NCBI RefSeq assembly: GCF_000422245.1
Contig: NZ_ATHI01000005.1
Location: forward strand, 1-64,000
From: Alkalidesulfovibrio alkalitolerans DSM 16529
Lineage (GTDB): Bacteria > Desulfobacterota > Desulfovibrionia > Desulfovibrionales > Desulfovibrionaceae
Length of the DNA stretch: 64,000 nt
Direction: 5' to 3'
Part shown: positions 2,016 to 35,672 of the stretch, piece after piece
Layout of the letters: every line of letters begins with the position of its first letter
How positions within the stretch are numbered: position 1 is the stretch's first letter
The notes under the pieces: model-generated
Database searches by the model: none
Told to the model about the DNA's origin: nothing
Seen by the model: the letters and a program-made list of their open reading frames with translations, nothing else
Translations under genes and position numbers: made by a program

Positions 2016-2020
2016 CCAGC

Positions 2021-3934: not shown

Positions 3935-3940
3935 AAATTT

Positions 3941-3975: not shown

Positions 3976-4597
3976 TCTGCATTGGTGGCGCGGAAAGTCA
4001 CTCCGCCGTGTGCCGCATTTTTGTCACATCCACCGCCATCACTCCTGAATCATTAGCAATTAGCAAAAGAGCGGTCGATGCCTTCGGGAAGAGAAAATCG
4101 GCGGCGAGTATACACTATTTACACACCCCATAAACCTCTTAACTCCTTGCAAAAGCAACTTTAAGTCTTGGAATTGTCAAGCCAGCCTCCCAAGGGCAAA
4201 TACAAAGTTTCCGACGGGGGTGCGTACTGTCGGCTAGCTAAGTTTTCGGACGACGCCCCGGCTTGTTCCATTCAATTTGAGGGACACCACGCCAAACTCT
4301 CATCAATTTCATCCCGCACGGCCTGCCTTGTCAAATCGCTGTCTCGCCGCAACCACCTTCCGCACTTCCTGGCGGCACCTCCACCACCCGCCACCCATTC
4401 CCAGATATCTGGCACCGCGTCTTGCCAAAAATGAGTCAACCGCGCTTGGAATGATTGCACTTTTGTAAAACTTCGCGCGGCCCACTCATTGAAATGCTTG
4501 ACTTTTTCGCTGGTATGCTTTGTGCTCCCGCCCTGACCTCGTCGCCGCCGGAACGCACGCGCGGCGACGTCCATTTTCAAGGAAAGGTATCGACCGC
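3976..4597. other. Gene-free stretch upstream of the TRAP operon
   Basis: About 620 bases hold no gene I can support. The composition is intermediate between the element and the chromosome. Near its right end are a candidate promoter (4489-4519) and a perfect 9-base hairpin, CGTCGCCGC at 4540-4548 with GCGGCGACG at 4561-4569, in the leader of the transporter operon. A sigma-54-like TGGCAC followed by TTGC near 4411-4427 has one base too many between GG and GC. Confidence 0.5.
4489..4519 (+). promoter_or_regulatory. Possible promoter of the TRAP operon
   Basis: TTGAAA at 4489-4494 and TATGCT at 4514-4519 with a TGG extension of the -10. The 19-base spacer is long, so the extended -10 would have to compensate. 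The hairpin at 4540-4569 lies in the untranslated leader. Confidence 0.35.
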
Positions 4598-20646: not shown

Positions 20647-22107
20647 TCAGGCCAAAACGGGAGCCTGGACGCGGCCAAGGGTCACCAGATCGCCAAAGAC
20701 TTCGACTATACGGCGGTCCCACTGGCTCCCGGCGCCCTTGAGCAAGGTCTCCATGGCCATGCGTGAAGCCAGGCCGTTCCTGTAGGCCCGGTTGGAGACC
20801 ATGGCCTCGTAGCCGTCGGCCACACTGATGATGCGCGAAAGAAGGGGAATGTTGTCGCCCATGAGGCGGTCGGGGTATCCGCTGCCGTCCATGCGCTCGT
20901 GGTGATGGTAGATGAGGGGCAAAACGTCGTCGAGGACGGCCACGCGACTGATGATGTCGCGGCCGATGGCGGGGTGACGTTGCATGATGTCATACTCGTC
21001 CTGTGTCAGCCCCTCTGGCTTGTTCAGGATCGAATCCGGCACGCCGATCTTGCCGATGTCGTGCAAAAGTCCGGCGATGCGCACCAGTTCGCGCTCGTGC
21101 CGCGAAAGGCCGAACGCCTCGCCGAGCGCCACCGCGTACTCGGCCACTCGCTCGGAATGGCCGCAGGTATACGGGTCCTTGGCCTCGACCGCGCGCACCA
21201 ACGAGGTGATGACCCCCATGTTCAGGTCCTCGATCTGGCGATGCTTGGCGGTGCAGTCGAGCACCGCGGCGGCGTGCGAGCAGAAAAACGAAAGAAGCTG
21301 CAGATCGCCCATGGAGTAGGGATTGTCCTCTCCGAGCCGGATCACGACCGAGGCCCCGATGCGCTCGGAACCGTTGACCAGAGGGGCGATCATGAGGCTC
21401 ATGGGCGGCATGGCCGCAGGCATGTCCCTGCCGGCCCTGGCCGCCGCCGCAAGTCCCTTTGGGTCGAAAAGCCTGGGTTTGCCGAGTTCCAGGACCCGCT
21501 CGGCCACGAGTCCCCACCAACTCAGGATCCCGTTCTTCAAGGCGTTCGCCCGGAAAGTCACGGGGCGCCGGCCGTCGTTGGAAGGGAAGAAGAAAGTCAT
21601 GACATCGGGCGCGAACGTGCCGCGAACCTGCGAGAGAAATTCCTTGAGCTGGCCGCTGAAACTGCTGCGCGCACGCAATGCCTGCCCAAGCCCCATGACC
21701 GTGGACAGGCCCAGCCCGTCTCCCGGAGAAGCGCGCAAGCGTCTCTCGCCCAGCGCCTTGTCCACGCGCACGGCCAGATCCTCGATTCCGAACGGCTTGA
21801 GCATGTAGTCCACGGCACCAAGCTGGAGGCACTCGACGGCATTGGAAACGCAGCCGTACCCAGTGAGAAAGATGAATTCGGCGTCGATGCCGCGGCGTTT
21901 GGACTCACGCAAAAGGTCCATGCCACCCATCTCAGGCATGCGCAGATCGCAGACCACGCAATCGATTTTCTCGTGTTCGAGCACCGAAAGGGCTTCGCGG
22001 CCATTGCCCGCGGCGAGGACAAAATGCCCTTTTTCACCCAACGCTTCTCGACAGACATCGAGAAGTCCGGGTTCATCATCAACGAGGAGTATGGTGCTGC
22101 GCTGCAT
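20647..22107 (-). CDS. Response regulator with REC, GAF-like and HD-GYP domains
   Basis: This 486-residue protein has a receiver domain (STILLVDDEPGLLDV, phospho-Asp in CVVCDLRMPEMGG, conserved Lys in YMLKPF), a central GAF-like domain (about 150-310) and a full HD-GYP phosphodiesterase with LLHDIGKIGVP, IYHHHERMDGSGYP and ISVADGYEAM. It should degrade c-di-GMP on phosphorylation. I choose ATG 22107 because the receiver begins right there. A TTG at 22161 with GGGAG upstream would add 18 residues. It is divergent from the HDOD-kinase gene, and shared repeats lie in the gap. Confidence 0.9.
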   Translation of the reverse strand: MQRSTILLVDDEPGLLDVCREALGEKGHFVLAAGNGREALSVLEHEKIDCVVCDLRMPEMGGMDLLRESKRRGIDAEFIFLTGYGCVSNAVECLQLGAVDYMLKPFGIEDLAVRVDKALGERRLRASPGDGLGLSTVMGLGQALRARSSFSGQLKEFLSQVRGTFAPDVMTFFFPSNDGRRPVTFRANALKNGILSWWGLVAERVLELGKPRLFDPKGLAAAARAGRDMPAAMPPMSLMIAPLVNGSERIGASVVIRLGEDNPYSMGDLQLLSFFCSHAAAVLDCTAKHRQIEDLNMGVITSLVRAVEAKDPYTCGHSERVAEYAVALGEAFGLSRHERELVRIAGLLHDIGKIGVPDSILNKPEGLTQDEYDIMQRHPAIGRDIISRVAVLDDVLPLIYHHHERMDGSGYPDRLMGDNIPLLSRIISVADGYEAMVSNRAYRNGLASRMAMETLLKGAGSQWDRRIVEVFGDLVTLGRVQAPVLA

Positions 22108-22133
22108 GGCGGCTCGTGGAACCGTTTGAGGAA

Positions 22134-22222
22134 CCGAAATGGAACAGTGTTTCACCAGCAATGAACGGGCGCTCCCACATGCAGGTGGGGTGAAGAAACA
22201 TCGGTTTTCCGAAATGAAACAG
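22134..22222. promoter_or_regulatory. Paired direct-repeat sites in the divergent control region
   Basis: CCGAAATGGAACAG (22134-22147) and CCGAAATGAAACAG (22209-22222) are near-identical direct repeats 75 bases apart, about seven helical turns. They lie upstream of the HD-GYP gene, and the first lies within its possible extended N-terminus. The remaining gap to 22494 (about 270 bases) holds no gene I can support. The spacing suggests cooperative regulator binding. Confidence 0.45.
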
Positions 22223-22494
22223 CATCAGCCGGTCCTGTCGCATACCCCCACACGACGCGCGAAAACTACGTGAACATGACAGGAATGGCAAGAGCGCGCC
22301 ATGTGACATCTTTCATTTTCGCGTCGACTGATGTATGAGCGGGAGCGCAAAGCACAATGTCTTGCACTTCCACGGCTTCGTCGCCCAGGCCTGTCAAGGG
22401 TGGCCGTACTAAGACCCCGGAACACGAGAATAATCCTACTCCGTGCACCGGGTAACAATGCCGCCTGGGGCCGCTACGAAAAACGGAGACAACA

Positions 22495-25143
22495 GTGGAT
22501 AACCCAGCCGCAACGCCCGCGACAGACGCCTCCGACAGTCTCAGAGAGCTCATCCGGGCCGTTGACGCCCTTCCCTCGCCGCCGCCCGTGGCGGTGACCA
22601 TTCTCTCCTCGGTCCACGAGAGCAGCGACTTCGCCGAGGTCGCCGCGCTCACCGCCTCGGACCCCGCGTTGACCCTGAAAGTCCTGAAGCTGGCCAATTC
22701 TTCCGCATACAACCGGCAAGGCCGCATCGCATCCCTGGACAAGGCCTTGGTCGTCGTCGGCGTGGCCGCGCTCAAGTCCATCCTGCTCGGCACCTTCATC
22801 CGGGGCAAGCTGCTCGCCGACCGCTCGCCAAGCGATCCCATCATCCTGGACTTCTGGAAGCACTCCCTGGGCTGCGCCGTGACGGCCCAACTGCTGGCGG
22901 AACGACTAGCCCCCGAGTTGCGCGAGGACGCCTTCGTGGCGGGCATGATCCATGACCTGGGCAAGGCCGCGCTGCTCGTCGCAAGGTCCGAGGCCTACGA
23001 ACGGGTGCTCGATTACGCGGCGCGCACCGGCGAGGATCTGAGCGAGTGCGAACGGGTGGCCTTCGGCGCTGACCACGGCCTGGCCGGAAAATGGCTGGCC
23101 GAGTCGTGGGGGCTGCCGCCCATGCTGGTCGACGCCGTCTGGCTGCACCACCAAGCCGACGCATTGTCGGATTTCCCGGGTTTCGGCAAACGTGGCAAGC
23201 GCGATGCCCGAGACGACCAAGCCAACGCCCTGCTTGGCCTCGTCATGCTCGCCGACCGCCTGTGCAGGGAAGCCATGGTCGACTACAGCGGCTCCCTGGG
23301 CGACCTCGAAAGTCCGCTCAAATCCGCCTCCCTTGCGGCCAGGCTGCAGATAAAGCCCCAAGTGCTCGACGACGTGCGGCCCCTGATCGCCCAACGGTTC
23401 GCCGAACGCGCCGACCTCTACGACATTTCCATGGACGCCGCGACCTTCTACGCCGAGGCCCTGCAACGGGCCAACGGCAAGCTCGTGTCGCTGTCCGTGT
23501 CCGGCACGCGCGAGCAGGCCACCCTGGCGCGCTCGCGTCAGGTTCTCGAAGCCGCGTCGCGTCTTGCCGCCTCGCTGGCCACGGCCGACACGGCGGAAAA
23601 GATGCTCGACGCCTTGGCGAACGACGTCTTCTCCGGACTCGATTGTCCGCGCGCCGCGGCCTTTCTCGCCGCCGAGGACGAAACCTCGCGCGCCTTGGGT
23701 TGGCTCGACGGCCGCAGGCTCGCGACAGGCGATCCAACGACGTGGCCCGCGCCGCTGCGCGAGATGCTCACCTTCCCGCAGACCTTGAAGAAAGAACAGC
23801 GCCACGGCGACATCCTGGCCCTGCCGCTACAGTTCGCGGGCGAGCGCTTCGGGGATGTGTTCCTCGCCCGCCCCCTGTCGAGTTGCCCGTTTTCCGAACA
23901 AGAGGCCGCCGCCTACCGGCAGATCGCGCACCTCATGGCCGCGAACCTCCACCGTCTGGCCCTGGCGCGCCAACTCGCGCAACGGGCCGAGGAACTTTCA
24001 AGCGCCCTGGGACGCCTCTCCAAGGCGCGCGAGACCGCCATGCAGGCCGAACGGCTCGCGGCCGTGGGCCAACTGGCGGCCGGAGCTGCCCACGAGATCA
24101 ACAACCCCCTCTCCATCGTCTACGCCCGCGCCCAGCTCATGGAGCACAAGGAGCAGGACACGGCAAAAAAGCGCAGCCTGCGCCAGATGATGGAGCAGAT
24201 CGAGCGCATCACGGGAATATTGCAAAATCTCATGGACTTCGCCCGGCCCGCCCCTCCCCGGCTGCGCGAAACCTCGCTCAACGACACGGTGGAAAAGACG
24301 CTTTCGCTGCTCGCGGACGCAATGGGCGCAAGCAAGGTGCGTGTCGAGCGCGACCTCGACCAGACACTGCCGCGCGTCATGGCCGACCCGGCCCAGTTGC
24401 AATCACTGATCGTGAACCTGTGCATCAATGCCCAGCACGCCATGCAGCACAAGGGCGGGGGTACGCTCTCCGTGCGCACCCGAAACGACCCGGACAAGGA
24501 CCGCGCGCTGCTCGTGGTGCGTGACACCGGCATGGGCATCAAAAAGGAAGTTCTAAACCGCATTTTCGAGCCCTTCTTCACCACCAAGGAGGCGGGCAAA
24601 GGCACGGGGCTGGGGCTCTCCATCTGCTACGGCATCGTCCAAGGGCATGGCGGCTCCATCGACATCGAAAGCGAGGAAGGCGCGTTCACCGAGGTCGTGG
24701 TGGGATTCCCCCTGCCCTCCCTGGGAAAAAGCGCCCCGGTCTCCCGCGAGGACCCCGAGACGCGGCATGGCGGCGGGGCCGATGTCCTTGTCGTGGACGA
24801 CGAGGCCCACATCCGCGACATCCTCTCCGAGGCGCTGACCGCCGAAGGCTTCAGCGTGGACACGGCGAAAAACGGTCACGAGGCCTTGCAACGCATCTCC
24901 TCGGGCCGCTACCGGCTGGTGCTGCTCGACGTTGTCATGCCCCGCCTGGACGGGCTCTCGGTGCTGCGAGCCCTGGTCGCCAAGCGGCCCGGCCTGCCCG
25001 TGATCGTGCTCACGGGGCTGGCCGGACAGGCCGAAATGCGTCAGATCGCCGAACTTGGGGCCGTGTGCCTGACCAAACCTTTCCAGATGGATGAAATTTT
25101 GTCCCACGTCCGCCGCCTGCTGGCCGGAGAGCAGGACTCATGA
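22495..25143 (+). CDS. HDOD-GAF-histidine kinase-receiver hybrid
   Basis: This 882-residue soluble protein starts with an HDOD domain (about residues 18-230: LPSPPPVAVTILSSV, ALTLKVLKLANSSAY). A GAF-like region follows (about 340-490), then a short coiled coil and a kinase with H-box AAGAAHEINNPLS (His near 532), N-box NLCINAQHAM, G-boxes VVRDTGMGIK and GKGTGLGLSI. A receiver ends the protein (DVLVVDDEAHIRDIL, phospho-Asp in VLLDVVMPRLDG, LTKPF). GTG 22495 follows ACGGAGAC. No membrane segment is visible, so it senses cytoplasmic signals. It overlaps the following MinD-like gene (ATGA) and faces the HD-GYP response regulator, its likely partner. Confidence 0.9.
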   Translation: MDNPAATPATDASDSLRELIRAVDALPSPPPVAVTILSSVHESSDFAEVAALTASDPALTLKVLKLANSSAYNRQGRIASLDKALVVVGVAALKSILLGTFIRGKLLADRSPSDPIILDFWKHSLGCAVTAQLLAERLAPELREDAFVAGMIHDLGKAALLVARSEAYERVLDYAARTGEDLSECERVAFGADHGLAGKWLAESWGLPPMLVDAVWLHHQADALSDFPGFGKRGKRDARDDQANALLGLVMLADRLCREAMVDYSGSLGDLESPLKSASLAARLQIKPQVLDDVRPLIAQRFAERADLYDISMDAATFYAEALQRANGKLVSLSVSGTREQATLARSRQVLEAASRLAASLATADTAEKMLDALANDVFSGLDCPRAAAFLAAEDETSRALGWLDGRRLATGDPTTWPAPLREMLTFPQTLKKEQRHGDILALPLQFAGERFGDVFLARPLSSCPFSEQEAAAYRQIAHLMAANLHRLALARQLAQRAEELSSALGRLSKARETAMQAERLAAVGQLAAGAAHEINNPLSIVYARAQLMEHKEQDTAKKRSLRQMMEQIERITGILQNLMDFARPAPPRLRETSLNDTVEKTLSLLADAMGASKVRVERDLDQTLPRVMADPAQLQSLIVNLCINAQHAMQHKGGGTLSVRTRNDPDKDRALLVVRDTGMGIKKEVLNRIFEPFFTTKEAGKGTGLGLSICYGIVQGHGGSIDIESEEGAFTEVVVGFPLPSLGKSAPVSREDPETRHGGGADVLVVDDEAHIRDILSEALTAEGFSVDTAKNGHEALQRISSGRYRLVLLDVVMPRLDGLSVLRALVAKRPGLPVIVLTGLAGQAEMRQIAELGAVCLTKPFQMDEILSHVRRLLAGEQDS

Positions 25144-26552
25144 GCCGCGCTCCTGGCGCGCCCGGCGCGCGGGTGCTGGCCGTGGCCTCGGGCAAGGGAG
25201 GCGTGGGCAAGACCAGCGTGGCCGTGCACCTTGCCCTGGCCTTGGCCGCGCGCAGGAAGCGCGTCTGCCTGCTGGACGCGGACCTGGGCCTGGCCAACGT
25301 GGACATCCTGCTCGGCCTTTCCCCGAGCCGCACCCTGGAGGACGTGCTCTTCGACGATCTGCCGCTCGAACAGGCGCTCGTGCGGGCGGCTCCGGGGCTC
25401 GACGTCCTGCCCGGAAGCTCCGGCGTGCAACGCATGGCCGACCTGCCGCGCGTCGCCCGCGAACGCTTGGTGCGCGAGGCGCAAAAGCTCATGGGCTACG
25501 ATCTGCTCATCGTGGATACCTCGCCGGGCATCAGCCGCCAGATTGTCTCCCTGTGTCTGGCGGCCGGGGAGGTCGTGGTCGTGACCACGCCCGAGGCGAC
25601 CTCCGTGACCGACGCCTACGCGCTCATCAAGGTCATGGTCCAAAACGGCTTGGCCCGCCGTCCGCACTTGCTCATCAACAGAGCAAAGAGCCAGGCCCAG
25701 GCGCGACTGATCTTCGAAAAACTCGACTCAACGGCCAGACGCTACCTGAACCGCGACTGCGGCCTCCTGGGCGTGCTCCCCGATGACGCGGGACTTTCCC
25801 GCGCCGCCGCGCTCAGACGCCCGCTGCGCGAGGTCTGTCCGGCCGCCGGGATCACCAGAGCCTTCGATGTCCTGGCGGAAAGCCTAGCGGACGCCAGGGG
25901 GCCGCTTAGCCGCGCCGGGCGCATCGCCCCGGACTTCTTTCGCGACTTTTTGGTGCGCGCCATGGCCGAGGCAGCGCAAGCCGAGCCCCCCTTGAAGACA
26001 TCGCAACAAAAGATGTCCGCCGCCAAAGGGGGAACCCTGCCCGGCCTTTGCGACCGTCTGGCCGCCCTGGACGACCTCGTGAAGGCCCTGCCCAACGCCA
26101 CGGACGGCGCGGGCGCGCGCGCCATCTACGCCCGCCTGGCCGACGAACTGACCCGCCTGCGCCGCGACGCGGCCCTGGCCGAGAACCGGGACCCGGAAAG
26201 CGGCCTTTTGAAGCCCCGCCCCAAGGCGGCCCTGCTCTGCGACGACCCGGCCATGCGAGAGGTGCTCGCGGATATCCTCGACGAGGTCGGGCTTTCGCCC
26301 TTTGACGCTCCGCCCGACGGAAAACTTCCGGATTTCAAGAACCCTCCCGCCCTGGCCGTGGCCTGCTGGGATGGCCCCCCGACCTCGCTTGCGGCTTTTG
26401 CCGACGCCGTGCGTGGCAGCCCGCTCCTGACCCTGCCTGGACTTGGAACCGACCCGACCCCCTGCCCTGGCGCGGTGGTCGTTCGCCGTCCCTTCCGGCT
26501 CGACGAACTGCGCCGGACCATCGTCCGCCTCTCGAATCGCCCCGCTAACTGA
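25140..26552 (+). CDS. MinD/ParA-family ATPase with degenerate receiver-like tail
   Basis: Residues 10-260 form a MinD/FlhG-type ATPase: deviant Walker A SGKGGVGKTS, VCLLDADLGLANVD, and LLIVDTSPGISRQ as the Walker B region. FlhG proteins control flagellar number and placement. The last 115 residues (from about 350, KAALLCDDPAMREVLADIL, ending VVVRRPFRLDELRRTIVRL) look like a receiver fold in which the phospho-acceptor aspartate region has become ALAVACWDGPP, so phosphorylation is doubtful. The start overlaps the kinase stop. The fusion plus overlap suggests the kinase hybrid and this ATPase act together, perhaps positioning a signalling complex. Confidence 0.82.
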   Translation: MSRAPGAPGARVLAVASGKGGVGKTSVAVHLALALAARRKRVCLLDADLGLANVDILLGLSPSRTLEDVLFDDLPLEQALVRAAPGLDVLPGSSGVQRMADLPRVARERLVREAQKLMGYDLLIVDTSPGISRQIVSLCLAAGEVVVVTTPEATSVTDAYALIKVMVQNGLARRPHLLINRAKSQAQARLIFEKLDSTARRYLNRDCGLLGVLPDDAGLSRAAALRRPLREVCPAAGITRAFDVLAESLADARGPLSRAGRIAPDFFRDFLVRAMAEAAQAEPPLKTSQQKMSAAKGGTLPGLCDRLAALDDLVKALPNATDGAGARAIYARLADELTRLRRDAALAENRDPESGLLKPRPKAALLCDDPAMREVLADILDEVGLSPFDAPPDGKLPDFKNPPALAVACWDGPPTSLAAFADAVRGSPLLTLPGLGTDPTPCPGAVVVRRPFRLDELRRTIVRLSNRPAN

Positions 26553-26603
26553 TTGCACGCAGCGCCGTCGCTGGCCCATCCGCCATTTTTCTGCTAAAGA
26601 AGA

Positions 26604-28892
26604 ATGTTGGATGACTCCGCCATGAATATTACCTTTCGCGACTCCCTTTTCTCGGGCCTGGGCCTTGCAAGCCGCTTCCCTTTCTTGCTGCGTCCCCGTT
26701 CGCTGTCAGTCTCGGACAGGCTCGCGGCCTTCCCCACGGGCAAGATGCCGCTTCACGCCCCGGCCGAAGTGCGTTTCGACGACCTGCTCATCCCGTACGT
26801 CCACGCCGAAGACGACCGCGATCTGCCTTTTCTGCTCGGCGTGGTCCACGCCTTCCTGCGCCTGGGGCAGATGGAGTTGTTCAGGGCCACGGCCACGGGC
26901 AGACTCTGCGAGCTTTTCGGCGCGCCCGCCATGCGCCTGGACGCCTCGCTGCGCCGCATGGGACTCGCGCGCGCCGTCCCGGCCATGCTGGCCTCGCTCT
27001 CGCCCGCCACGTCCGCCTGGATAGAGCGCTACGCCCAGGGCGTGAGCTTCATGGCCGCAAAAAGCCGGGGACTCTCGCCCGAGACCGATTTCTACCAAAG
27101 CGCCGCCCGTCCCTGGAGCGCGACCGACGTGCTGGCCGTGGGCCGCCTGATCTCCTCGGACATCAACTGGCTGTTCTGGCTCGTGCGGCTGCGCGCCTAC
27201 CGCGACCCGGGCTGGCCCGGTCTTTGGGAGCGCATGACCAGTCTCGCACGCTGCGCCGCGCCAAGCTTCGTTCCCGACGCAAACGACGCAGCAGACGCGC
27301 TGTGGAGCACCCTGGGCGCGTCCCAGAAGGCCGGGAGCAACTGCGTGGCCGTGGCGGGCAGCCGCACGAAAAACGGCGCGGGGCTTCTGGCCGGAGACGC
27401 CCATGTGCAGCTTTCCCTGCCTCCTTTGTGGTGTGTCGCGGCCCTGAAGTCTCCCGGTTTCGCCGCCGCAGGCATGACCATCCCCGGCGTTCCCGCCGTG
27501 CTCGTGGGCCGCAACCGGCATATCGCCTGGGGCGGCACCAACATGCTGGCCCTGCAAAGCATCTTCTACGACGTCTCGCGCCTGCCCACCTCGGCTTTCC
27601 GCGAGGTCGAAGAAAAGGCTACGGTACGTTTCTGCGGCCAGCGGGCCCTCCGCTACCGCGAGTGCGACTTCGGCCCCGTGATCTCGGACGCGCCGCTTTT
27701 GGCCGCCCTCAACCTGCCGCCCCTGGCCCTCTCCTGGCGCGGCCACCGGCCCAGCGACGAGATCGGCGCCATGCTGGCCGTGAACCGGGCCGAAAATTTC
27801 GGCGAATTCAGGGCCGCCTTCGAGCCCTGGGCCGTCTCGGGCCAGCATTTCCTCTATGCCGACGCGCACGGCGGAATCGGACAGGTGGCGGCCCTGGAGT
27901 TCGACCCGGCCGCCTCGCGCGCGGCCCTCGACTTTCTGGGCGACCCGGCCGACCCGGCCCACGCCTGGGGCGAGAAGCACCGCTCCACGGAGCTTCCAGC
28001 CGTATTCGCGCCCGAGGAGGGACTGCTCGTCTCGGCCAACAATCCCGCCTTCGGCTGCGATCCGGCCCTCACCCTCTTCGAGCAGTCCGACGACCGCTAC
28101 CATCGCCTGCGCGAACGCATCCTGGCCGCAACCCCTTTCGGCCCGGAGCAGGCCTTCTCCATGCAGCAGGACACCCACTGCGCCACTTCCCTGACCCTGG
28201 CGCGACGCATCCGTCTCGCGGCGCTACGCATTGGTCCGCCCGCCGGGACCGAAGCGCTCCTCGACGCCCTGGCCGCCTGGGACGGCCGCTACGAGACCGA
28301 CTCACGCGGAGCCGCCGCCCTGGAACTCACGGCCCACGCCCTGGCCCGGCGCGTCTTTCCACCCCGCCATGGGCATGGCCCGACGGCCGTCCTCATGGCC
28401 TCCCCTGCGGCGCTGCCGCTGCTTGCCGAGGACGTGGGCGAATGTGGCCCCCTGGTGCTCGACAATCTGGCCCCGGCCCTTGCCGAAGCCGCACCGCGCT
28501 TCGCCCGCTACCCGGAGTGGGGGGCGCTGCACCACGTGGTGCTCAAACATCCTTTGGCCTCCCTGCCCATTGCGGGCCGCGCCTTCGCACACGGTCGCGA
28601 GAAGAGCCCTGGAGGCACCCTGACCGTGCACAAGACCGCCATCCCCCTGGTGGGAGGCCCCCACGACGCCACCTACGGAGCCACGGCCCGGCATGTACAC
28701 GATCTGGCCGACGAGGACGAAAGCTTCGTCAGCCTCTTGGGAGGCCAGGATGGTGTGGCTGGGAGCGAATCCTTCCTGTCCTTCGCCAAGCTCTGGCGAC
28801 GCGGCGAATACGTGACCCTACCCCTTCGGCTCGCCACGGCCAAAAAACGTTTCCCCCACGCCATACCGATCCTTCCGGGAGGTGAGCCATGA
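26604..28892 (+). CDS. Penicillin acylase-family amidase (Ntn hydrolase)
   Basis: This 762-residue protein has the S45 penicillin acylase layout: an alpha-chain-like region, then QKAGSNCVAVAGSRTKNG with the predicted nucleophile Ser245 (self-cleavage after Gly244), LLAGDAHVQLSLP, and NRHIAWGGTNM in the beta chain. I see no signal peptide, so unlike most relatives it may be cytoplasmic. The tryptophan that commonly follows SerAsn is a cysteine here. ATG 26604 has AAAGAAGA upstream, and ATG 26622 is an alternative. The gene overlaps the GH3-type amide synthetase by four bases, which suggests that one makes and the other cleaves the same type of N-acyl amide. The substrate is unknown. Confidence 0.82.
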   Translation: MLDDSAMNITFRDSLFSGLGLASRFPFLLRPRSLSVSDRLAAFPTGKMPLHAPAEVRFDDLLIPYVHAEDDRDLPFLLGVVHAFLRLGQMELFRATATGRLCELFGAPAMRLDASLRRMGLARAVPAMLASLSPATSAWIERYAQGVSFMAAKSRGLSPETDFYQSAARPWSATDVLAVGRLISSDINWLFWLVRLRAYRDPGWPGLWERMTSLARCAAPSFVPDANDAADALWSTLGASQKAGSNCVAVAGSRTKNGAGLLAGDAHVQLSLPPLWCVAALKSPGFAAAGMTIPGVPAVLVGRNRHIAWGGTNMLALQSIFYDVSRLPTSAFREVEEKATVRFCGQRALRYRECDFGPVISDAPLLAALNLPPLALSWRGHRPSDEIGAMLAVNRAENFGEFRAAFEPWAVSGQHFLYADAHGGIGQVAALEFDPAASRAALDFLGDPADPAHAWGEKHRSTELPAVFAPEEGLLVSANNPAFGCDPALTLFEQSDDRYHRLRERILAATPFGPEQAFSMQQDTHCATSLTLARRIRLAALRIGPPAGTEALLDALAAWDGRYETDSRGAAALELTAHALARRVFPPRHGHGPTAVLMASPAALPLLAEDVGECGPLVLDNLAPALAEAAPRFARYPEWGALHHVVLKHPLASLPIAGRAFAHGREKSPGGTLTVHKTAIPLVGGPHDATYGATARHVHDLADEDESFVSLLGGQDGVAGSESFLSFAKLWRRGEYVTLPLRLATAKKRFPHAIPILPGGEP

Positions 28893-30424
28893 TCGACGTC
28901 ACTCCCTTCATGCGGATGTACGCGCGGCGCAGACTCGGGATTCTCGCGGCGCAAAATCCGGCGGCCACGCAGGAACGCGAACTGCTCCACCTGCTCAAGC
29001 GGGCCGAAAAAACCCGTTTCGGCCGCGACCACAGCTTTTCACGCCTGCGCTCGGTGCACGACTTCCAAAAGGCCGTGCCGCTCAGACGCTACGAGGATTT
29101 CTGGCAGGACTACATCTCGCCGCGCTTCCCGGTCATCGACGACGAGCTTTGGCCGGGCAAAACCCCGTATTTCGCCCTCTCCTCCGGCACCACCAAGGGC
29201 GTAACCAAGCACTTGCCCGTGACGCCCGACATGGCCCGCTCCAACCGCCAGGGCGGGCTGGACCTGCTCGCGCACCACCTGAACGCGCGGCCAAAAAGCC
29301 GCGTCCTGGGCGGCCTGTCCTTTCTCTTCGGCGGCTCCACCGACGTGGTCGAACTGGCTCCCGGCGTGCACGAAGGCGACCTCTCGGGCATCGCGGTGCG
29401 TGAACTTCCCTGGTGGATCAAGCCCTGGACCTTCCCGCCGCCCGAACTCGCGCTCATCGCGGACTGGGAGGAGAAAATCGAGCGCCTGATCCCCCTGGCG
29501 CTTGGGCGCGACGTGCGCATGATCAGCGGCGTGCCCTCGTGGCTTCTGCTGGCCTTCGACCGTCTAGCCGCGCTGCTCGGCAAAAAGCGCTTCAGGCTTG
29601 TCGACGCTTGGCCACACATGGAGATGGTGGTGCATGGAGGCGTGAGCTTCGAGCCCTATGAGGGCCGCTTCCGCGAGCTTTTCGAGGGCTCGCGGGCCGA
29701 AACACGCGAGGTCTATCCCGCCTCCGAGGGCTTCGTGGCCGTGGCCGACAGGGGACACGGCCAGGGTCTGCGCATGCTGCTCGACCACGGCATCTTCTTC
29801 GAATTCGTGCCCGTGGAGGAGATCGACGCGGATGAGCCCCGCCGTTTCTGGATCGCCGACGCCGAACCGAGCGTGAACTACGCCATCGTCCTCTCCACCT
29901 GCGCGGGCCTGTGGAGCTACGTCCTGGGCGACACGGTGAGGTTGGTGGAGAGGAATCCGCCGCGCCTCGTGGTCACGGGCCGCACATCGTACATGCTCTC
30001 GGCCTTCGGCGAACACCTCATCGGCGAGGAGATCGAGGAGGCCGTGGCCCGCGCCGCCGCCGCAATGGACGCGCGGCTGGACGATTTCTGCGTGGCTGCC
30101 CAGTATCCCTCGCGGGACGGAGAACCAGGCCGCCACCACTACGTGGTCGAGTTCGCCGGGACGGCCCCGGACGAGGAGGGGCTGGCCCGCTTCGCCGCCC
30201 TGGTGGACGAACGGCTGATAAAGGCCAACGCCGACTATGCGGCCCATCGCGCCAAGGACTTGCAATTGGCCGGTCCGCGCGTGAGCGCAGCGCCCGTTGG
30301 TTTCTTCGCGGCCTGGATGAAGTCGCGCGGCCGCCTAGGCGGCCAGAACAAGGTGCCGCGCGTCATGCGCGACCAGACATTGTTCGGCGGACTGCTCGAA
30401 TTCCTGGCGAATTTCCCCCGCTGA
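28889..30424 (+). CDS. GH3-family acyl-acid-amido synthetase
   Basis: This 511-residue protein matches the GH3 family, best known from plant auxin and jasmonate conjugation. The ATP-binding motif FALSSGTTKG lies at residues 95-104, the second motif is YPASEG and the third is SYVLGDTVRLV, and a C-terminal cap ends in GGQNKVPRV. The expected reaction is adenylation of a carboxylic acid and its transfer to an amine such as an amino acid. It starts inside the end of the acylase gene (ATGA overlap), so the two are coupled. Bacterial GH3 members are little characterised. The acid and amine substrates cannot be read from sequence. Confidence 0.88.
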   Translation: MIDVTPFMRMYARRRLGILAAQNPAATQERELLHLLKRAEKTRFGRDHSFSRLRSVHDFQKAVPLRRYEDFWQDYISPRFPVIDDELWPGKTPYFALSSGTTKGVTKHLPVTPDMARSNRQGGLDLLAHHLNARPKSRVLGGLSFLFGGSTDVVELAPGVHEGDLSGIAVRELPWWIKPWTFPPPELALIADWEEKIERLIPLALGRDVRMISGVPSWLLLAFDRLAALLGKKRFRLVDAWPHMEMVVHGGVSFEPYEGRFRELFEGSRAETREVYPASEGFVAVADRGHGQGLRMLLDHGIFFEFVPVEEIDADEPRRFWIADAEPSVNYAIVLSTCAGLWSYVLGDTVRLVERNPPRLVVTGRTSYMLSAFGEHLIGEEIEEAVARAAAAMDARLDDFCVAAQYPSRDGEPGRHHYVVEFAGTAPDEEGLARFAALVDERLIKANADYAAHRAKDLQLAGPRVSAAPVGFFAAWMKSRGRLGGQNKVPRVMRDQTLFGGLLEFLANFPR

Positions 30425-30500
30425 GGCCGCCGCTGGCCTTATGCCCGGTTATGGGGTAGCAGGTGGCGACGCATCGCCGCCCATTACCAAGGAAGCCTTC

Positions 30501-31604
30501 ATGACCAGCACGCCATACGGCCACGTGAGAATCCCTTTCGCGCGCATCCACCTGGAGTTGACCAACGTCTGCGACTTCAACTGCCTGTTCTGCCCCAAAT
30601 CCATGATGACCAGGAAATACGGCTACATGGACGAAAGGCTCGCCAAGAAGCTGGTGGAGGAGATCGCGTCCAAAGGGCTGGCGGAGAAGGTCACCTTCCA
30701 CGTCATGGGCGAACCCACGCTGCACCCGAAGTTCTTCGATATCCTGGAGCACGCCCGCGACATCGGCATGCCCGTGGGCCTGACCACCAACGGCGGGGGT
30801 TTGGGCGGCGAGGCGGGCAGACGGCTGCTCGACTACGAACTCAAGCAGATCGACGTCTCGCTGCAAACCCCGGACGCCGAATCCTTCCGGCTGCGCAAGG
30901 CGGGCCGCCTGAGCTTCGAGGAGTTTCTCGACGGCATCACCCGCTTCTTCGCGGCCTACCGGACGCGCTGGCCCGAGACGATCTTCAAGTTCCGCTTCCT
31001 GAACACGACCTTCCCGCCCAAGGCCATCGAGGAGAAACAAGGCCCCATGCGCGTCATCTCCTCCACGGCCGAGTTGCACGAGGTCTTCGCGGTCTGGATC
31101 GGCCGCATCCACGACCTGATGGGCGTGGACGACGACGCCCGGAAGACGGCGCTCTCCCGCCTGAAGAAGCTCAAGGCCTGGAAATGGAACGTGGTCGAGG
31201 TGCTGCCCAACACCTTCTTTGAGACCTACATGCTGGGCGACTGGGGCAACGCCTTTTCCGGTGACGCGGTGCACGAGGCCTGGGCAGGCTACTGTTTCGG
31301 CATGCGCGACCATTTCGCCGTGCTCTGGAACGGCGACGTGACCCTGTGCTGCGTGGATTTCGACGGCAAGACCAAGATCGGCAACGTGACCAGCACGACC
31401 CTCGAAGACATCCTGCATGGCCCTGCCCTTGGCCGGGTGATGCAGGGTTTTCGGCGCTTCCGGCCGATCATGCCGCACTGCCGCAAGTGCCTGGGCTCGC
31501 GCAGCAGGCTCTCGTGGCTGGCCAAACCCTTTTTGCAGGTCGGCGGGCTTTCGCTGTTCAAACCCTATTTTCACAAAAAAACCCGGCTCTACGACCGGGG
31601 CTGA
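30501..31604 (+). CDS. Radical SAM protein with SPASM-like C-terminus
   Basis: This 367-residue protein has the radical SAM cluster motif Cys24-x3-Cys28-x2-Cys31 in LTNVCDFNCLFCPKS and the SAM-binding segment HVMGEPTLHP. The C-terminal region carries a further cysteine set, DVTLCCVDFDGK and HCRKCLGS, as in SPASM domains that bind an auxiliary Fe-S cluster. ATG 30501 follows AAGGAAG. The gap from the GH3 gene is 76 bases without a clear terminator, so it may belong to the same transcript. The 110-residue insert between the two cysteine regions is unusual. It could modify a peptide or small molecule, and no substrate peptide gene is seen beside it. Confidence 0.82.
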   Translation: MTSTPYGHVRIPFARIHLELTNVCDFNCLFCPKSMMTRKYGYMDERLAKKLVEEIASKGLAEKVTFHVMGEPTLHPKFFDILEHARDIGMPVGLTTNGGGLGGEAGRRLLDYELKQIDVSLQTPDAESFRLRKAGRLSFEEFLDGITRFFAAYRTRWPETIFKFRFLNTTFPPKAIEEKQGPMRVISSTAELHEVFAVWIGRIHDLMGVDDDARKTALSRLKKLKAWKWNVVEVLPNTFFETYMLGDWGNAFSGDAVHEAWAGYCFGMRDHFAVLWNGDVTLCCVDFDGKTKIGNVTSTTLEDILHGPALGRVMQGFRRFRPIMPHCRKCLGSRSRLSWLAKPFLQVGGLSLFKPYFHKKTRLYDRG

Positions 31605-31619
31605 GCCCCGTGCAAATGC

Positions 31620-31649
31620 GAAGGGCTCCGGATCGCTCCGAAGCCCTTC
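31620..31649. terminator. Bidirectional hairpin between convergent genes
   Basis: GAAGGGCTCCGGA (31620-31632) pairs with TCCGAAGCCCTTC (31637-31649), one mismatch, four-base loop. It lies between the radical SAM gene and the opposing small gene. The T-run is weak. Confidence 0.55.
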
Positions 31650-31685
31650 ATTCCCCCCGATGGAGACCGCTACGCGCGTGTCGCA

Positions 31686-31910
31686 TCAGACATCCATCCC
31701 CGTGGTGGTCAGGGCCTGCACGACTTCGCCCCTGGCGTTGTAGACGGGCGAGGCCTCGGTGGCCACCAGCTTGGCAGCAAGACTCGGGTCCTGCAGCACC
31801 TTGCGCTGCAACCGGGCCTTCCTGATATCCTTCATCATTTCTGCGTCGGTGGCCGCTTTCTCGACGCCCCGGGACTCGACCACGGGAGCGATGGTGGTGG
31901 ACTCTATCAT
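31686..31910 (-). CDS. Small conserved-looking hypothetical protein
   Basis: This 74-residue protein starts at ATG 31910 behind AAGGAG with good spacing, which is the main support. It is soluble and charged: a helical middle (AEMMKDIRKARLQRKVLQDP) is followed by a short strand-like end (PVYNARGEVVQALTTTG). No cysteine, signal or known motif is visible and I do not recognise the family. It is monocistronic, with a shared hairpin after it. Confidence 0.6.
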   Translation of the reverse strand: MIESTTIAPVVESRGVEKAATDAEMMKDIRKARLQRKVLQDPSLAAKLVATEASPVYNARGEVVQALTTTGMDV

Positions 31911-32004
31911 GGTTTGCTCCTTGGTTGGCGGTTTCGGGTTGATTTCCTGAGCCGTACCTACTCAATCGGTCCGTCGGCAGGATACTTTAGGGTCCGAAAC
32001 GTTT

Positions 32005-32021
32005 TTGGCACATTTAGTGCT
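32005..32021 (+). promoter_or_regulatory. Candidate sigma-54 promoter
   Basis: TTGGCACATTTAGTGCT has GG at 32007-32008 and GC at 32019-32020, the exact -24/-12 spacing, with one mismatch (GTGC for TTGC). The predicted transcript start (about 32032) is only two bases before the chosen ATG 32034. Either the mRNA is leaderless, the true start is downstream, or the match is chance. Confidence 0.3.
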
Positions 32022-32033
32022 CGAAAAGGCCGC

Positions 32034-33068
32034 ATGAACCCGGTCGGCCATAATTCCGTCACACCTCAAACGACGCTGCCGCAGCATCTTGCGTCGCCGC
32101 CGCTCGCGGCGTGCTGCGCCCGGCTGTTACACCGCCCCGTGCTGCGCGGCCCGCTCCTCGATCCCACCGCATACGAAGACATCTCGTTGCGCGAGGAGAT
32201 CGACCGTCTGGCCGAACCCGGAACGCCCATCGACGACGCGGGCCTCGTGCGCCTGCTCGCCAAGTATTTTCACGCCTACGTGCACGGTTCGCACAACGAG
32301 CGGCTCTCCCTGGCCGACATAGGCCTGCTCTTCGACCAGTTCCACAACCGTCGCCGGGGCGCGGATTCATTGGAGAACAGGCGTGATTTGCGCGCCTTCC
32401 TCCTGCACCACGGCTTCGCCCTGTGCATGCTCGCCGACCTGCCAAAGAGCGCCCACATCCTGCGCCAGATACTGACCGCGCCGCTTTCGCCCCGCGCAGG
32501 CGCGCCCTTCCTGGGGCTGGACATCGGCACGGGCACAGGCGTGCTCATGCTGGCCATGCACATCGCGGCCCGGCGGGCGGACTTTGCCGCGCCCCGCACC
32601 ATCGGCATCGAGCGCGACCAGACCGTGCAGGAGCGCACGGACGCCCTCGTCCGGACCCTTGGCGTGGGACAGGCCATCCTTGGCGACGCCACGCGGCCCG
32701 AAACCTATGCCGACCTGCCCGAAGGGCCGGTGTCCTTCGTCTGCAACGAAACGCTACCAAGTCTTGGCAGGCGGATGTGGCGAGAAGATTTCTCGCCCAT
32801 CAGCGCGGCGCTCTTCGCGACCCTGGGCCAACGGTTGGCTGCGGCGGCCTTCTTCCCGGCCGCGCTGTGGGTGGGCGACGGCCAGGAGATCACCGTGCGG
32901 CTTGGGCCCGAAAACGCCTTTTCGCCCGCCACCCGGCCGCCCGTACGCCTGCTCAAGGCCATGGCCATCGAGATGGACGGCGGGGTGCTCCCCCTGGACC
33001 GGATCGGCCGGGACTTCGCGCCACACGTGCAGCCCCCGTGGCACGAGCGCCTAGCCAGACGCTGGTAG
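32034..33068 (+). CDS. SAM-dependent methyltransferase-like protein
   Basis: This 344-residue protein has a helical N-terminal region of about 150 residues and then a Rossmann methyltransferase core: FLGLDIGTGTGVLMLAM is motif I, RTIGIERDQTVQER the acidic loop, and GQAILGDATRPETY the later motif. No NPPY-type catalytic motif is clear. VSFVCNETLPSLG stands where it would be expected. Substrate unknown. ATG 32034 follows AAAAGG. It is followed by a DUF445 gene after 67 bases. Confidence 0.7.
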   Translation: MNPVGHNSVTPQTTLPQHLASPPLAACCARLLHRPVLRGPLLDPTAYEDISLREEIDRLAEPGTPIDDAGLVRLLAKYFHAYVHGSHNERLSLADIGLLFDQFHNRRRGADSLENRRDLRAFLLHHGFALCMLADLPKSAHILRQILTAPLSPRAGAPFLGLDIGTGTGVLMLAMHIAARRADFAAPRTIGIERDQTVQERTDALVRTLGVGQAILGDATRPETYADLPEGPVSFVCNETLPSLGRRMWREDFSPISAALFATLGQRLAAAAFFPAALWVGDGQEITVRLGPENAFSPATRPPVRLLKAMAIEMDGGVLPLDRIGRDFAPHVQPPWHERLARRW

Positions 33069-33135
33069 CCTTTACACCCGCGTTCCCGTCTGCTATCGAA
33101 CCGGCCCGTCATTCGCCACAGATCAAGGAACCCGA

Positions 33136-33753
33136 ATGGACTTCGCACAGTTCGCGCCTTACCTGCTGACGCCCTTTGTGTGCGCCCTCATCGGCTGGGC
33201 CACCAACTGGATCGCCGTGAAGATGCTCTTCCATCCCCGCGAGCCGTGGAAATTCGGCCCGCTCGCGATCCAGGGCATCTTTCCCAAGCGGCAGAAGGCC
33301 CTGGCCGCGCGCCTGGGAGAGATGGTGCAGCGCGAACTGGTGAATATGGAAGAGATCGCCGAGGCGCTGCGCGGCCACGACATGTCCGAGCGCTTCCGCG
33401 AGGTCATCGACGCCGAGATCGGGCGGCTTCTGACCGAAAAGTTGGTCGAAGCCATTCCCATGGCGGCCATGTTCCTCTCGGAATCCATGATCGAGAAGCT
33501 CAAGAAGCTGCTCGTTCCGGAAATCCTGAAGCTGGTGCCCACCCTGGTGGACAAGGCCGCGGGCGAGCTTTCCGCCTGCTACGACATCGAGGCCGCCGTG
33601 CGCGCCAAGGTGGAAGCCTTCCCCGTGGAAAAGCTGGAGGAAATCCTCTTCTCCATCATGCGCCGCGAATTCCGCTTCGTGGAGATCACGGGCGGCGTGC
33701 TCGGCTTCATGATCGGCTCGGCGCAGTCGCTGCTCTTCTGGCTGCTCCTGTAG
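33136..33753 (+). CDS. DUF445-family membrane protein
   Basis: This 205-residue protein has one hydrophobic segment at each end and an amphipathic helical centre. The opening PFVCALIGWATNWIAVKMLFHP and the following GIFPKRQKALAARLGEMV are the DUF445 signature. The C-terminus ends in a second membrane segment (GGVLGFMIGSAQSLLFWLLL). The family occurs in many bacteria as an inner membrane protein with no firm function. ATG 33136 has AAGGAACCC upstream. It converges on the HU-type gene. Confidence 0.88.
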   Translation: MDFAQFAPYLLTPFVCALIGWATNWIAVKMLFHPREPWKFGPLAIQGIFPKRQKALAARLGEMVQRELVNMEEIAEALRGHDMSERFREVIDAEIGRLLTEKLVEAIPMAAMFLSESMIEKLKKLLVPEILKLVPTLVDKAAGELSACYDIEAAVRAKVEAFPVEKLEEILFSIMRREFRFVEITGGVLGFMIGSAQSLLFWLLL

Positions 33754-33777
33754 ACCCGGCGCGACGCCCCGCATTTG

Positions 33778-34362
33778 TCAAAGTTTCTCGCCCGCCCGAT
33801 TCATGGCCTTCTTCAGTTCGGCGTAGGCCGACTCGAAGCCCTTGCGAAGCTCCGCAAAGGCGTCCCCGCTGCCGCGCTGCAAAAGATCGAGCTTGTAGCG
33901 CGCCTTCTCCACGAGCTCGCTCAATTGGTCGCGGCCGTGGCTGATGGTCTCGCGCGCTTCGCGGCCCAGGCGCTCGGGCTCCTTGGAGTAACGCACCACC
34001 GAATTCTTGAGCGCCTCGAACTCCTTGGCGGCGCGGCGCACTATCTCGCGGCTTTCGAGCCAGCTTGCCGCCTCGCCCTTGTCCATGGCCTCGGCCGCGC
34101 GGCGCAGATCCTCGCCGGGCGAAAAAACCACGGCCTTGCGCGCGGGAATGGCAATGGCCTCGCCCGTGGAGGGATTGCGACCCGTGCGCGCGGCCCGCGC
34201 CCGAACGTGGAAGGCCCCGAACTGCCGCAGCATGACCCGGCCGTCCGTGGTGAGACCTTTGACGAGACCTTCCAGGATGGCCTCGTAGCATTCCTCGGCT
34301 TGGCGGTTGGACGAGAGCCCTGCCCGTTCCTTCATGTACGACGTCAGATAATCCTTGGCCAT
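33778..34362 (-). CDS. HU/IHF-family DNA-binding protein with long helical tail
   Basis: Residues 1-95 of 194 resemble HU/IHF: helical start (MAKDYLTSYM), VMLRQFGAFHVRARAARTGRNPSTGE with the DNA-inserting proline in RNPSTGE, and IPARKAVVFSPG. HU proteins usually end here at about 90 residues. This one continues for another 100 residues of charged amphipathic helix (LVEKARYKLDLLQRG, FESAYAELKKAMNRAG), perhaps a coiled coil. ATG 34362 is preceded by AAGGAG. It may be a nucleoid protein that also links to another partner or self-assembles. Confidence 0.82.
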   Translation of the reverse strand: MAKDYLTSYMKERAGLSSNRQAEECYEAILEGLVKGLTTDGRVMLRQFGAFHVRARAARTGRNPSTGEAIAIPARKAVVFSPGEDLRRAAEAMDKGEAASWLESREIVRRAAKEFEALKNSVVRYSKEPERLGREARETISHGRDQLSELVEKARYKLDLLQRGSGDAFAELRKGFESAYAELKKAMNRAGEKL

Positions 34363-34455
34363 GTAGCGTCTCCTTGACTGCTCGGAAAAAAGGTTTACCA
34401 CTAGGCGTCCGTAACACACTTCGAGCTATTCCGCCATGTCCCGGACGAAAAAGAC

Positions 34456-34749
34456 ATGAAAAAAAATGATGCGGCGGATGGGGAAAAGATGTCCGACGAA
34501 TACGCGAAGTTTGAAGAGACCTTGAGCAGCTGCGAGTCCTGGCCCTGCGACTACTGCTTCAAATTCATCGTGCCCGCGGCGAGCGTGCCCGAGATGATGG
34601 AGCTTTTCGTCGGTTTTTCCGTGACCACGCGGGAGAGCAGCAAGGGAAGCTTCGTCAGCGTCACGGCCACGGCAACGATGCGCACGGCCGCCGAGGTGGT
34701 GGCCGTCTATCGCCAAGCGGCTACCGTCCCTGGCGTCATCTCCCTCTAG
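34456..34749 (+). CDS. DUF493/YbeD-family protein
   Basis: This 97-residue protein has the alpha-beta pattern of the YbeD/DUF493 family: PCDYCFKFIVPAAS, then VTTRESSKGSFVSVTATATM and AAEVVAVYRQAATVPGV. The fold resembles ACT-type regulatory domains. The family often has an unknown housekeeping role. ATG 34456 has only a weak ribosome site. ATG 34489 behind GGGGAAAAG may be the true start and leaves the domain complete. Copy C of the palindromic repeat follows directly. Confidence 0.75.
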   Translation: MKKNDAADGEKMSDEYAKFEETLSSCESWPCDYCFKFIVPAASVPEMMELFVGFSVTTRESSKGSFVSVTATATMRTAAEVVAVYRQAATVPGVISL

Positions 34750-34750
34750 G

Positions 34751-34927
34751 CAGGTCGCCTGGAAAGCACCATCTGCGGCGTTGCCGCGAGAAATCCAGCC
34801 CCTCGCGTATTCTTTGATACGCGTCGGGTCTGGATTTCTCTTGCGCCTTGCATCTGGCGCTTTCCAGGCGACCTGCCGCAGTGCAAAGGACCAGCAACGC
34901 CGCAGATGGGGCTTTTTCAACGGCCTG
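34751..34927. repeat. Dispersed palindromic element, copy C
   Basis: A nested palindrome: outer arms CAGGTCGCCTGGAAAGC (34751-34767) and its perfect inverse at 34859-34875, middle arms GAGAAATCCAG (34788-34798) and CTGGATTTCTC (34830-34840), and a central CGCGTAT/ATACGCG hairpin (34804-34810 and 34817-34823). The tail CAACGCCGCAGATGG followed by CTTTTTCAACGGCCTGA matches the ends of copies A and E. The deoC stop codon (34917-34919) lies inside the tail. It fills the space between DUF493 and deoC, convergent genes. Confidence 0.8.
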
Positions 34928-35597
34928 AGACGATGGAGACTGAGGCCGAGCACCCCAGCACATCCGCCCCGGCCGCGAGCATGGCCCTGGCCTGGGCCAG
35001 GGTCTTGATGCCGCCCGAAGCCTTCACCCCCATCCCAGTGCCCACGGTGGCGCGAAGGAGCGCCACGGCCCGCTCGCTGGCCCCGCCCGGGCCGAACCCC
35101 GTCGAGGTTTTGACGAATGCGGCGCCCGCCGCCTTGCCGATGGCCGCGCCCGCGACGATCAGATCTTCCGGCAGCGCGGCCGTCTCCAGGATGACCTTGA
35201 CCGCGAAGGGCGCGGCCACGGCGACCACGGCCCCGATGTCGCGGTAGACGGTCATGAAATCCCGCTTTGCAAGCGCCGCGCGATTGATGACCATGTCCAG
35301 TTCGACCGCTCCGGCCGAAAGCGCCTCGTTGGCTTGGCGCACCTTCTCGTCCGTGGTCTCCAGGCCACTTGGGAATCCCACCACCGCCGCCACCTTGATC
35401 CCGCTTCCGGCCAGCCGCCGCGAAACCAAGTCCGCGTGGCGCGGGTAGACGCACACGGCGCGAAAGCCGTGCGCCACGGCCTCGTCGCACAGGCGTGACA
35501 GGGCCTCGCCCGAAGCGTCCGGGTCGAGCAGGGTGTGGTCGATGGCGGCCGCGACCGACTTGGGGGAAATGGCGTCCGTGTTCATGTTCCTGGGCAT
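34917..35597 (-). CDS. deoC: Deoxyribose-phosphate aldolase
   Basis: This 226-residue protein is a class I aldolase: DHTLLDPDA near the start, VYPRHADLVSRRL, VGFPSG, the KVILETAALPED strand with the catalytic lysine environment, and FVKTSTGFGPGGA with the Schiff-base lysine. It splits 2-deoxyribose-5-phosphate to glyceraldehyde-3-phosphate and acetaldehyde in nucleoside salvage. I use ATG 35597, which has GAGGGG eight bases upstream. ATG 35585 would shorten it by four residues. The stop falls in the end of palindromic copy C. It is divergent from sppA. Confidence 0.93.
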   Translation of the reverse strand: MPRNMNTDAISPKSVAAAIDHTLLDPDASGEALSRLCDEAVAHGFRAVCVYPRHADLVSRRLAGSGIKVAAVVGFPSGLETTDEKVRQANEALSAGAVELDMVINRAALAKRDFMTVYRDIGAVVAVAAPFAVKVILETAALPEDLIVAGAAIGKAAGAAFVKTSTGFGPGGASERAVALLRATVGTGMGVKASGGIKTLAQARAMLAAGADVLGCSASVSIVSGR

Positions 35598-35614
35598 ACG
35601 CAATGCCCCTCGCC

Positions 35615-35642
35615 TTGCCAAGCAGGGACGATATGGTATGCT
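35615..35642 (+). promoter_or_regulatory. Probable promoter of sppA
   Basis: TTGCCA (35615-35620), 16-base spacer, TATGCT (35637-35642) with an extended TGG before it. The GTG start with AAGGAG follows at 35673. Confidence 0.5.
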
Positions 35643-35672
35643 TCGGCGACATCGAAACCACAAGGAGCCGCC

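Follow-up and report, generated by a model that had tools for sequence, protein, structure and literature searches.

The window analyzed here is the whole 64,000-nucleotide stretch at positions 1 to 64,000 of contig NZ_ATHI01000005.1 from Alkalidesulfovibrio alkalitolerans DSM 16529, and this report concerns two of its genes, one encoding an N-terminal nucleophile (Ntn) hydrolase of the penicillin-acylase type (family S45) and the other an acyl-acid amido synthetase of the GH3 family related to OlsH. The pairing of these two genes exceeds chance and is not a local accident. The chances are judged to be about even that the two proteins constitute a small module of patchy distribution concerned with a membrane N-acyl amino acid, in which the S45 enzyme would hydrolyze that class of lipid. 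This rests on the identity of the two genes, invariant catalytic residues, an adjacency conserved across genomes, co-occurrence, and a correlated divergence of the proteins, all of which were seen in this analysis.

Recurrence of the gene pair

For the co-occurrence counts of the two large samples given below, matches were accepted at author-chosen limits of E<=1e-30 for GH3 and E<=1e-60 for the S45 subfamily. Among close relatives (99 genomes, including the window genome) GH3 was found in one genome and the S45 subfamily in seven, and in a phylum sample of 395 genomes GH3 was found in five, the other four proteins being 35-37% identical and without an S45 match, so that these counts, if taken alone, give the pair a strain-specific appearance. 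A tblastn search against plasmids recovered S45 and GH3 side by side in Indioceanicola profundi, and a megablast search of window positions 22000-36000 against plasmids gave no match. In the genome collection, one of 18 GH3 loci, that of the alphaproteobacterium Caenispirillum salinarum, was accompanied by S45; several of these contigs were short. Two samples were assembled around this species, one of its order (297 genomes) and one of its class (337 genomes), with G490 (Caenispirillum) in both; genomes and loci are cited by the G and L handles of the analysis.

In the order sample GH3 was present in 19 genomes, S45 in 23, and both in 18, where 1.5 were expected (Fisher 2e-23); the corresponding numbers for the class sample were 40, 49, and 34, with 5.8 expected (p 9e-29), and both p-values overstate the significance because related genomes are not independent. 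S45 was located within 5 kb of GH3 at 16 of 25 GH3 loci in the order sample and 24 of 44 in the class sample, corresponding to 37 genomes (14 + 24, Caenispirillum shared), and these counts, which are raw and include misses, are a lower bound, as several non-adjacent GH3 loci were situated at contig ends (e.g. G776, G793, G815, G866, G1008). S45 preceded GH3 on the same strand at 14 of the 16 adjacent loci of the order sample and at all 24 of the class sample, the gap being less than 150 bases in 13 of the 14 and 21 of the 24 same-strand pairs; the pair in G784 has a 4-base overlap. The second-copy pairs of G521 and G538 are adjacent but convergent. Two full GH3 copies were found in five order-sample genomes, four of which also contain two S45 genes and the fifth (G576) one, and a single GH3 is accompanied by two S45 genes in G587 and G603. 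No shared third gene around the pair was found in clusters of the open reading frames (ORFs) of the GH3 loci. A preliminary description of the locus had linked the two genes and had suggested a search for them close together elsewhere; with the 37 sample genomes and I. profundi the pair clearly extends beyond this strain, and the link is supported by adjacency and co-occurrence, the part of it that tied the pair to adjoining signaling genes being contradicted by the neighbor comparison given below.

Linkage through shared regulation or transfer only, with unrelated substrates for the two enzymes, would agree with the absence of the pair from both same-genus genomes, an absence typical of a block that is mobile or readily lost. 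Unlinked copies nevertheless still co-occur (e.g. G564, G576, and the second copies of G595) and adjacent pairs are arranged in two orientations, and this explanation is considered very unlikely. Divergence of the two proteins was compared with a Mantel test on the distance matrices of 33 S45/GH3 pairs out of 41 adjacent pairs (39 distinct pairs from the samples plus those of the window and Indioceanicola), the others being without a full-length protein or locus sequence. The correlation was r 0.62, with 0 of 5000 permutations as high, and fell to 0.49 when the two copies were swapped in two genomes.

The two enzymes and their predicted product

The GH3 protein matched PF03321 (GH3, 3e-27) together with the GH3_M and GH3_C domains of Pfam, its N, M, and C domains scoring 96.1, 49.8, and 73.5 bits against a cut-off of 23.6 each. 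Three nucleotide-binding motifs (SSGTTKGVTK, YPASE, and GLWSYVLGD) were located by comparison with the motifs presented in PMC12493201, and S99, G100, T101, K107, S279, E280, G340, D348, R365, and K488 were invariant across the 63 rows of the GH3 alignment. These domains and motifs bear out the earlier naming of the protein as a GH3-type acyl-amide synthetase. Its sole NCBIfam match was NF052613 (OlsH, lyso-ornithine lipid synthetase) at 582.3 bits, under the cut-off of 620, and the proteins of Indioceanicola (609.9), Caenispirillum (556.1), and the second copy of G538 (572.3) also scored under that value; a planctomycete GH3 (L025) scored 834.6, far over it, and a Geobacter-type GH3 331.7, far under it. 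In a tree generated with FastTree, the window GH3 and the GH3s from the Caenispirillum samples formed sister branches (support 95), with the planctomycete proteins outside and nearest to this proteobacterial clade. By sequence, the window GH3 falls in a clade that is sister to OlsH, and under the curated rule it does not qualify as OlsH.

As presented in its 2025 description, OlsH is a GH3 family enzyme of Singulisphaera acidiphila that joins a free fatty acid and ornithine in an ATP-dependent reaction to give N-acyl ornithine, requiring neither coenzyme A (CoA) nor acyl carrier protein (ACP), and the O-acyl step is performed by OlsI, an enzyme of the alpha/beta-hydrolase fold; proteobacterial relatives are listed there, and those outside the planctomycetes may use other amino acids (PMC12493201). 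Because the window GH3 is so close to OlsH in family terms, its product is more likely to be a lipid-like N-acyl amino acid than the generic signal or storage conjugate of the preliminary description, whose proposal of N-acyl amide synthesis and turnover is sharpened in this respect. Ornithine lipid was not accepted as the certain product, since the GH3 scores under the OlsH cut-off and PF13444, the domain of OlsB and OlsF, was detected in 50 of the 51 genomes searched for it (only the protein of the window genome being scored as OlsF-like). That protein (L180:62-1978), an OlsF-like bifunctional acyltransferase with PF13444 and PF19576 domains, scored 412.4 bits on NF052615, under the cut-off of 620, and its presence suggests either a product that differs from plain ornithine lipid or two parallel routes; the substrate of the GH3 in the window genome may be something other than ornithine.

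The S45 protein matched PF01804 (Penicil_amidase) at 5.4e-121 over profile positions 1-671 of 675 (406.2 bits, cut-off 21.3) and carries the Ser, His, and Asn residues of the family, G244, S245, N246, H267, and N479 being invariant across the 54 rows of the S45 alignment. Self-cleavage is predicted at Gly244/Ser245. The invariant His corresponds to beta-chain position 23 and the invariant Asn stands in place of the oxyanion Asn, and H267 and N479 presumably have the catalytic and oxyanion roles of these residues. The AlphaFold model (mean predicted local distance difference test score, pLDDT, 88.4) was closest in fold to D-succinylase (7ea4; Z 40.5, root-mean-square deviation 2.9, 687 aligned residues, 23% identity), followed by cephalosporin acylase, MacQ, penicillin G acylase, and PvdQ (Z 22.8), and the list also included the Ntn isopenicillin N acyltransferase (Z 21.9). 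The nearest solved structure in sequence was D-succinylase DSA of Cupriavidus (2.2e-31). D-succinylase is a hydrolase whose substrate class is N-acyl amino acids. In a FastTree analysis the window S45 grouped with that of G026 (support 100), and the attachment of these two to the rest of the tree had a support of 23. As side observations, the S45 gene of G026, which is without GH3, adjoins an arginase-family gene and, by eye, apparent carboxynorspermidine genes (L035:11714-16923); that of G899, also without GH3, adjoins an apparent spermidine synthase gene, again by eye (L208:4404-5393); and one S45 match (G039:C3:1300223-1302378) spans two overlapping reading frames, which may mean that the gene is frameshifted.

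The N-terminus of the window S45 is short, weakly hydrophobic, and without a lipobox, which is also missing from the S45 proteins of Indioceanicola and Caenispirillum. Of 66 S45 rows, 36 have a lipobox ahead of the catalytic domain according to a mechanical rule, as do 21 of the 35 rows marked as paired; the rule misses about five seen by eye (e.g. L095, L096, L036, L178, L106), L107 is doubtful, and 3 of the 66 rows are distant S45 proteins. Inspection by eye showed a lipobox in each of the four same-family relatives examined that lack GH3 (L035-L038) and a basic N-terminal segment in some other relatives, and either feature fits action at the membrane. A lipoprotein as the general rule was rejected for the window enzyme.

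In the proposed module the GH3 would, as modeled on OlsH, use ATP to adenylate a free fatty acid, which it would then join to an amino acid, and the S45 protein would cut itself to expose Ser245 and would then hydrolyze the amide of the lipid class made by the GH3, giving lipid turnover or remodeling at the membrane. Two other uses of the same activities were weighed. Maturation of the PvdQ kind, in which the GH3 would equip a small cytoplasmic molecule with an acyl group for membrane travel, to be removed again by S45 after export, agrees with the lipobox of many S45 relatives and with the fold similarity to PvdQ; it is improbable, however, as the window S45 and several others are without a lipobox, the window protein scores 29.8 bits on the PvdQ model (NF051460, cut-off 950), and no recurring biosynthetic or export gene was recognized with the pair in the ORF clusters. 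S45 might also free fatty acids from exogenous acyl amides, e.g. acyl-homoserine lactones (AHLs), for re-use by the GH3, a route that gains from the presence of the AHL acylases MacQ and PvdQ among the structure matches and from the use of free fatty acids by OlsH without CoA or ACP (PMC12493201). The correlated divergence, part of which is explained by shared ancestry, is more in line with one specific substrate common to both proteins than with a general fatty acid pool, and little credence is given to this supply route.

Several observations also count against the module itself. Shared species history can explain part of the distance correlation between S45 and GH3. At the limits used, 7 of 58 GH3 genomes are without an S45 match and 20 of 71 S45 genomes are without a GH3 match, so neither gene absolutely needs the other. 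No steady neighbor was recognized by eye among the two genes on each side of S45 genes away from GH3 in 20 stretches, 12 from genomes without a GH3 match and 8 from genomes with GH3 elsewhere. The lipoprotein-like S45 is likely to be outside the cytoplasm in many relatives and the GH3 may be in another compartment, no export signal having been seen on the GH3, for which no dedicated test was made. Finally, given the OlsF-like synthase and the presence of PF13444 in 50 of 51 genomes, the GH3 may be dispensable for ornithine lipid as such.

Partner genes and genomic neighborhood

Among the planctomycete-group GH3 loci (L018-L025, L031) an OlsI-type alpha/beta-hydrolase gene was found upstream of GH3 in eight of nine, and an OlsG-like methyltransferase gene was situated between the two in eight loci. 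The one OlsI-type protein scored (L022) reached 452.6 on NF052614 (OlsI, cut-off 385), and the one OlsG-like protein scored 306.5, under its cut-off of 350. Six Geobacter-type loci have another common gene approximately 1.3-1.6 kb upstream, centre to centre, and the single one scanned (L041) gave a weak match to Abhydrolase_6 (25.3 bits vs 26.3). In G962 and G1057, which have GH3 without S45, a gene of the dienelactone-hydrolase type, apparently with a signal sequence, is directly upstream (L188:6907-7923, L184:10268-11281) and is a possible third partner for GH3; in G703 and G1015, also without S45, a fatty acid desaturase gene adjoins GH3 (L089:6906-7886, L183:9937-10917), and one of these two loci has a class III aminotransferase as well. 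No S45 was detected at 1e-60 in 16 GH3 genomes of the planctomycete group, Bacteroidota, and Geobacter type, 3 of which gave weaker matches (best 7.9e-24). The overall picture is of a constant ligase whose second enzyme varies and is often a hydrolase type. Separately, a metal-dependent amidohydrolase gene and the second GH3 copy were arranged head to head at four loci only (L076, L077, L078, L081), and G981 and G980 contain tandem GH3 genes (L190:8072-11132, L189).

The changing partner bears on a further role for S45, that of a second-step acyltransferase in the place of OlsI, adding or exchanging an acyl group on the lyso-lipid made by the GH3 in a CoA- and ACP-independent aminolipid route. 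The upstream hydrolase genes of the planctomycete-group loci, L041, G962, and G1057 are in keeping with this role, as is the Ntn isopenicillin N acyltransferase among the fold matches; and because OlsI itself has a hydrolase fold and performs O-acyl transfer (PMC12493201), the explanation stays alive. Against it, the nearest fold of S45 is that of a hydrolase, and a GH3 match is missing from the 20 S45 genomes mentioned above. S45 enzymes are known for amide hydrolysis, and we know of no acyl donor for a periplasmic enzyme of this kind; on balance the role is unlikely. A broader proposal is that GH3 and S45 make up an aminolipid pathway that is complete in itself and independent of thioesters, running parallel to OlsBA, OlsF, and OlsHI; an Ntn hydrolase would perform the second acyl step at the membrane, by transfer or exchange, and the two-gene block would be common to distant lineages. 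This proposal is likewise regarded as doubtful. "Distant" rests here on the taxon of the window, taken to be a Desulfovibrio-type sulfate reducer, and on sequence divergence.

The features of the locus are listed in Table 1. The start of the GH3 gene lies inside the stop of the S45 gene, and this ATGA overlap suggests translational coupling of the two. The gene pair with its four-base overlap, the nucleophile Ser245, and the identity of the three neighboring genes, the last by position and domains, are all as the preliminary description had them; its wording that the enzymes are "fused" does not hold, since the genes overlap and the two proteins remain separate.

Table 1. Coordinates of the S45-GH3 gene pair and its neighbors in the window.
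Feature	Position	Strand	Remarks
HDOD-HisKA-HATPase-receiver gene	22495-25143		Pfam domains
MinD/ParA-like ATPase gene	25140-26552	+	Neighbor, judged outside the module
S45 (penicillin-acylase-type) Ntn hydrolase gene	26604-28892	+	762 amino acids, ATG start; PF01804 match
Ser245 codon, predicted N-terminal nucleophile	27336-27338	+	In alignment, opposite residue 1 of the beta chain in solved S45 enzymes
ATGA stop/start overlap, S45 gene to GH3 gene	28889-28892	+	Read directly from the sequence
OlsH-like GH3 acyl-acid amido synthetase gene	28889-30424	+	511 amino acids, ATG start; PF03321/PF23571/PF23572
Radical SAM/SPASM gene	30441-31604 (start may be 30501)	+	Neighbor, judged outside the module; syntenic in G001/G002, which are without the pair

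A set of 15 window genes running from PurU to thioredoxin reductase was compared with 26 GH3 loci (L016, L017, L068-L091). GH3 was matched in 26 and S45 in 17 of these loci, and nine of the 13 other genes had no match at 1e-10. The response regulator/HD and HDOD kinase genes gave weak matches in five loci each (27-35% identity among the matches listed), the MinD-like gene one weak match, and thioredoxin reductase two; the radical SAM gene was matched in none of the 26. Neither S45 nor GH3 was detected at E<=1e-20 in the same-genus genomes G001 and G002, in which the pair is missing although gene order matches that of the window for the radical SAM gene and the three genes that follow it; in G002 the HDOD and MinD-like genes are approximately 138 kb from the radical SAM gene. 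Since the pair is situated at a break in synteny, the HDOD, MinD-like, and radical SAM neighbors look like an accident of place. Placement of the pair behind a signaling module, as first described, was therefore dropped, and a signaling link was ruled out as part of the module, as these neighbors do not travel with the pair. Elsewhere in the window, the G+C content is 0.52-0.55 at positions 1-4000 vs 0.62-0.72 across the remainder.

Novelty and comparison with known systems

Both protein families are known and OlsH provides a precedent for the chemistry; the pairing itself appears to be new. No description of it was found among the matches listed in the open-licence PMC literature, in agreement with the preliminary description, and the words "acylase" and "amidase" do not occur in the main text of the OlsH paper (PMC12493201). 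A conserved partner offers a direct handle, as the S45 enzyme should recognize the product of the GH3 and each could help to find the substrate of the other. The penicillin-acylase-type family is familiar mainly through biotechnology and quorum quenching. If correct, the proposed module would give a subfamily of these enzymes a natural role and would suggest an undescribed way of making and remodeling amino-acid lipids.

The window S45 has its closest solved structure, in sequence and in fold, in D-succinylase DSA of Cupriavidus, from which it differs in that identity is low, many of its relatives have a lipobox, and many adjoin GH3. With PvdQ and the other AHL and pyoverdine acylases of S45 it has the fold and nucleophile position in common, whereas its score on NF051460 is far under the cut-off, and no pyoverdine or quorum-sensing genes were recognized beside the window pair in the Pfam annotation of the neighbors. 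The plant GH3 enzymes (JAR1 and relatives) share the family and nucleotide motifs of the window GH3, JAR1 being the best sequence match in PDB (6.7e-10), but are remote from it and act on hormone substrates. The slot of OlsI near OlsH in the planctomycete-group loci corresponds to that of S45 here, although the two differ in fold and Pfam family. OlsH itself resembles the window GH3 in family and motifs, and the planctomycete GH3s are 46-50% identical to it over seven aligned rows, in which H, E, L, and K are the commonest residues at the positions of its Y344, V353, R359, and S367. OlsH is partnered by OlsI and OlsG, however, whereas the window GH3 is partnered by S45 and is directly flanked by the S45 and radical SAM genes in place of an OlsI-containing operon.

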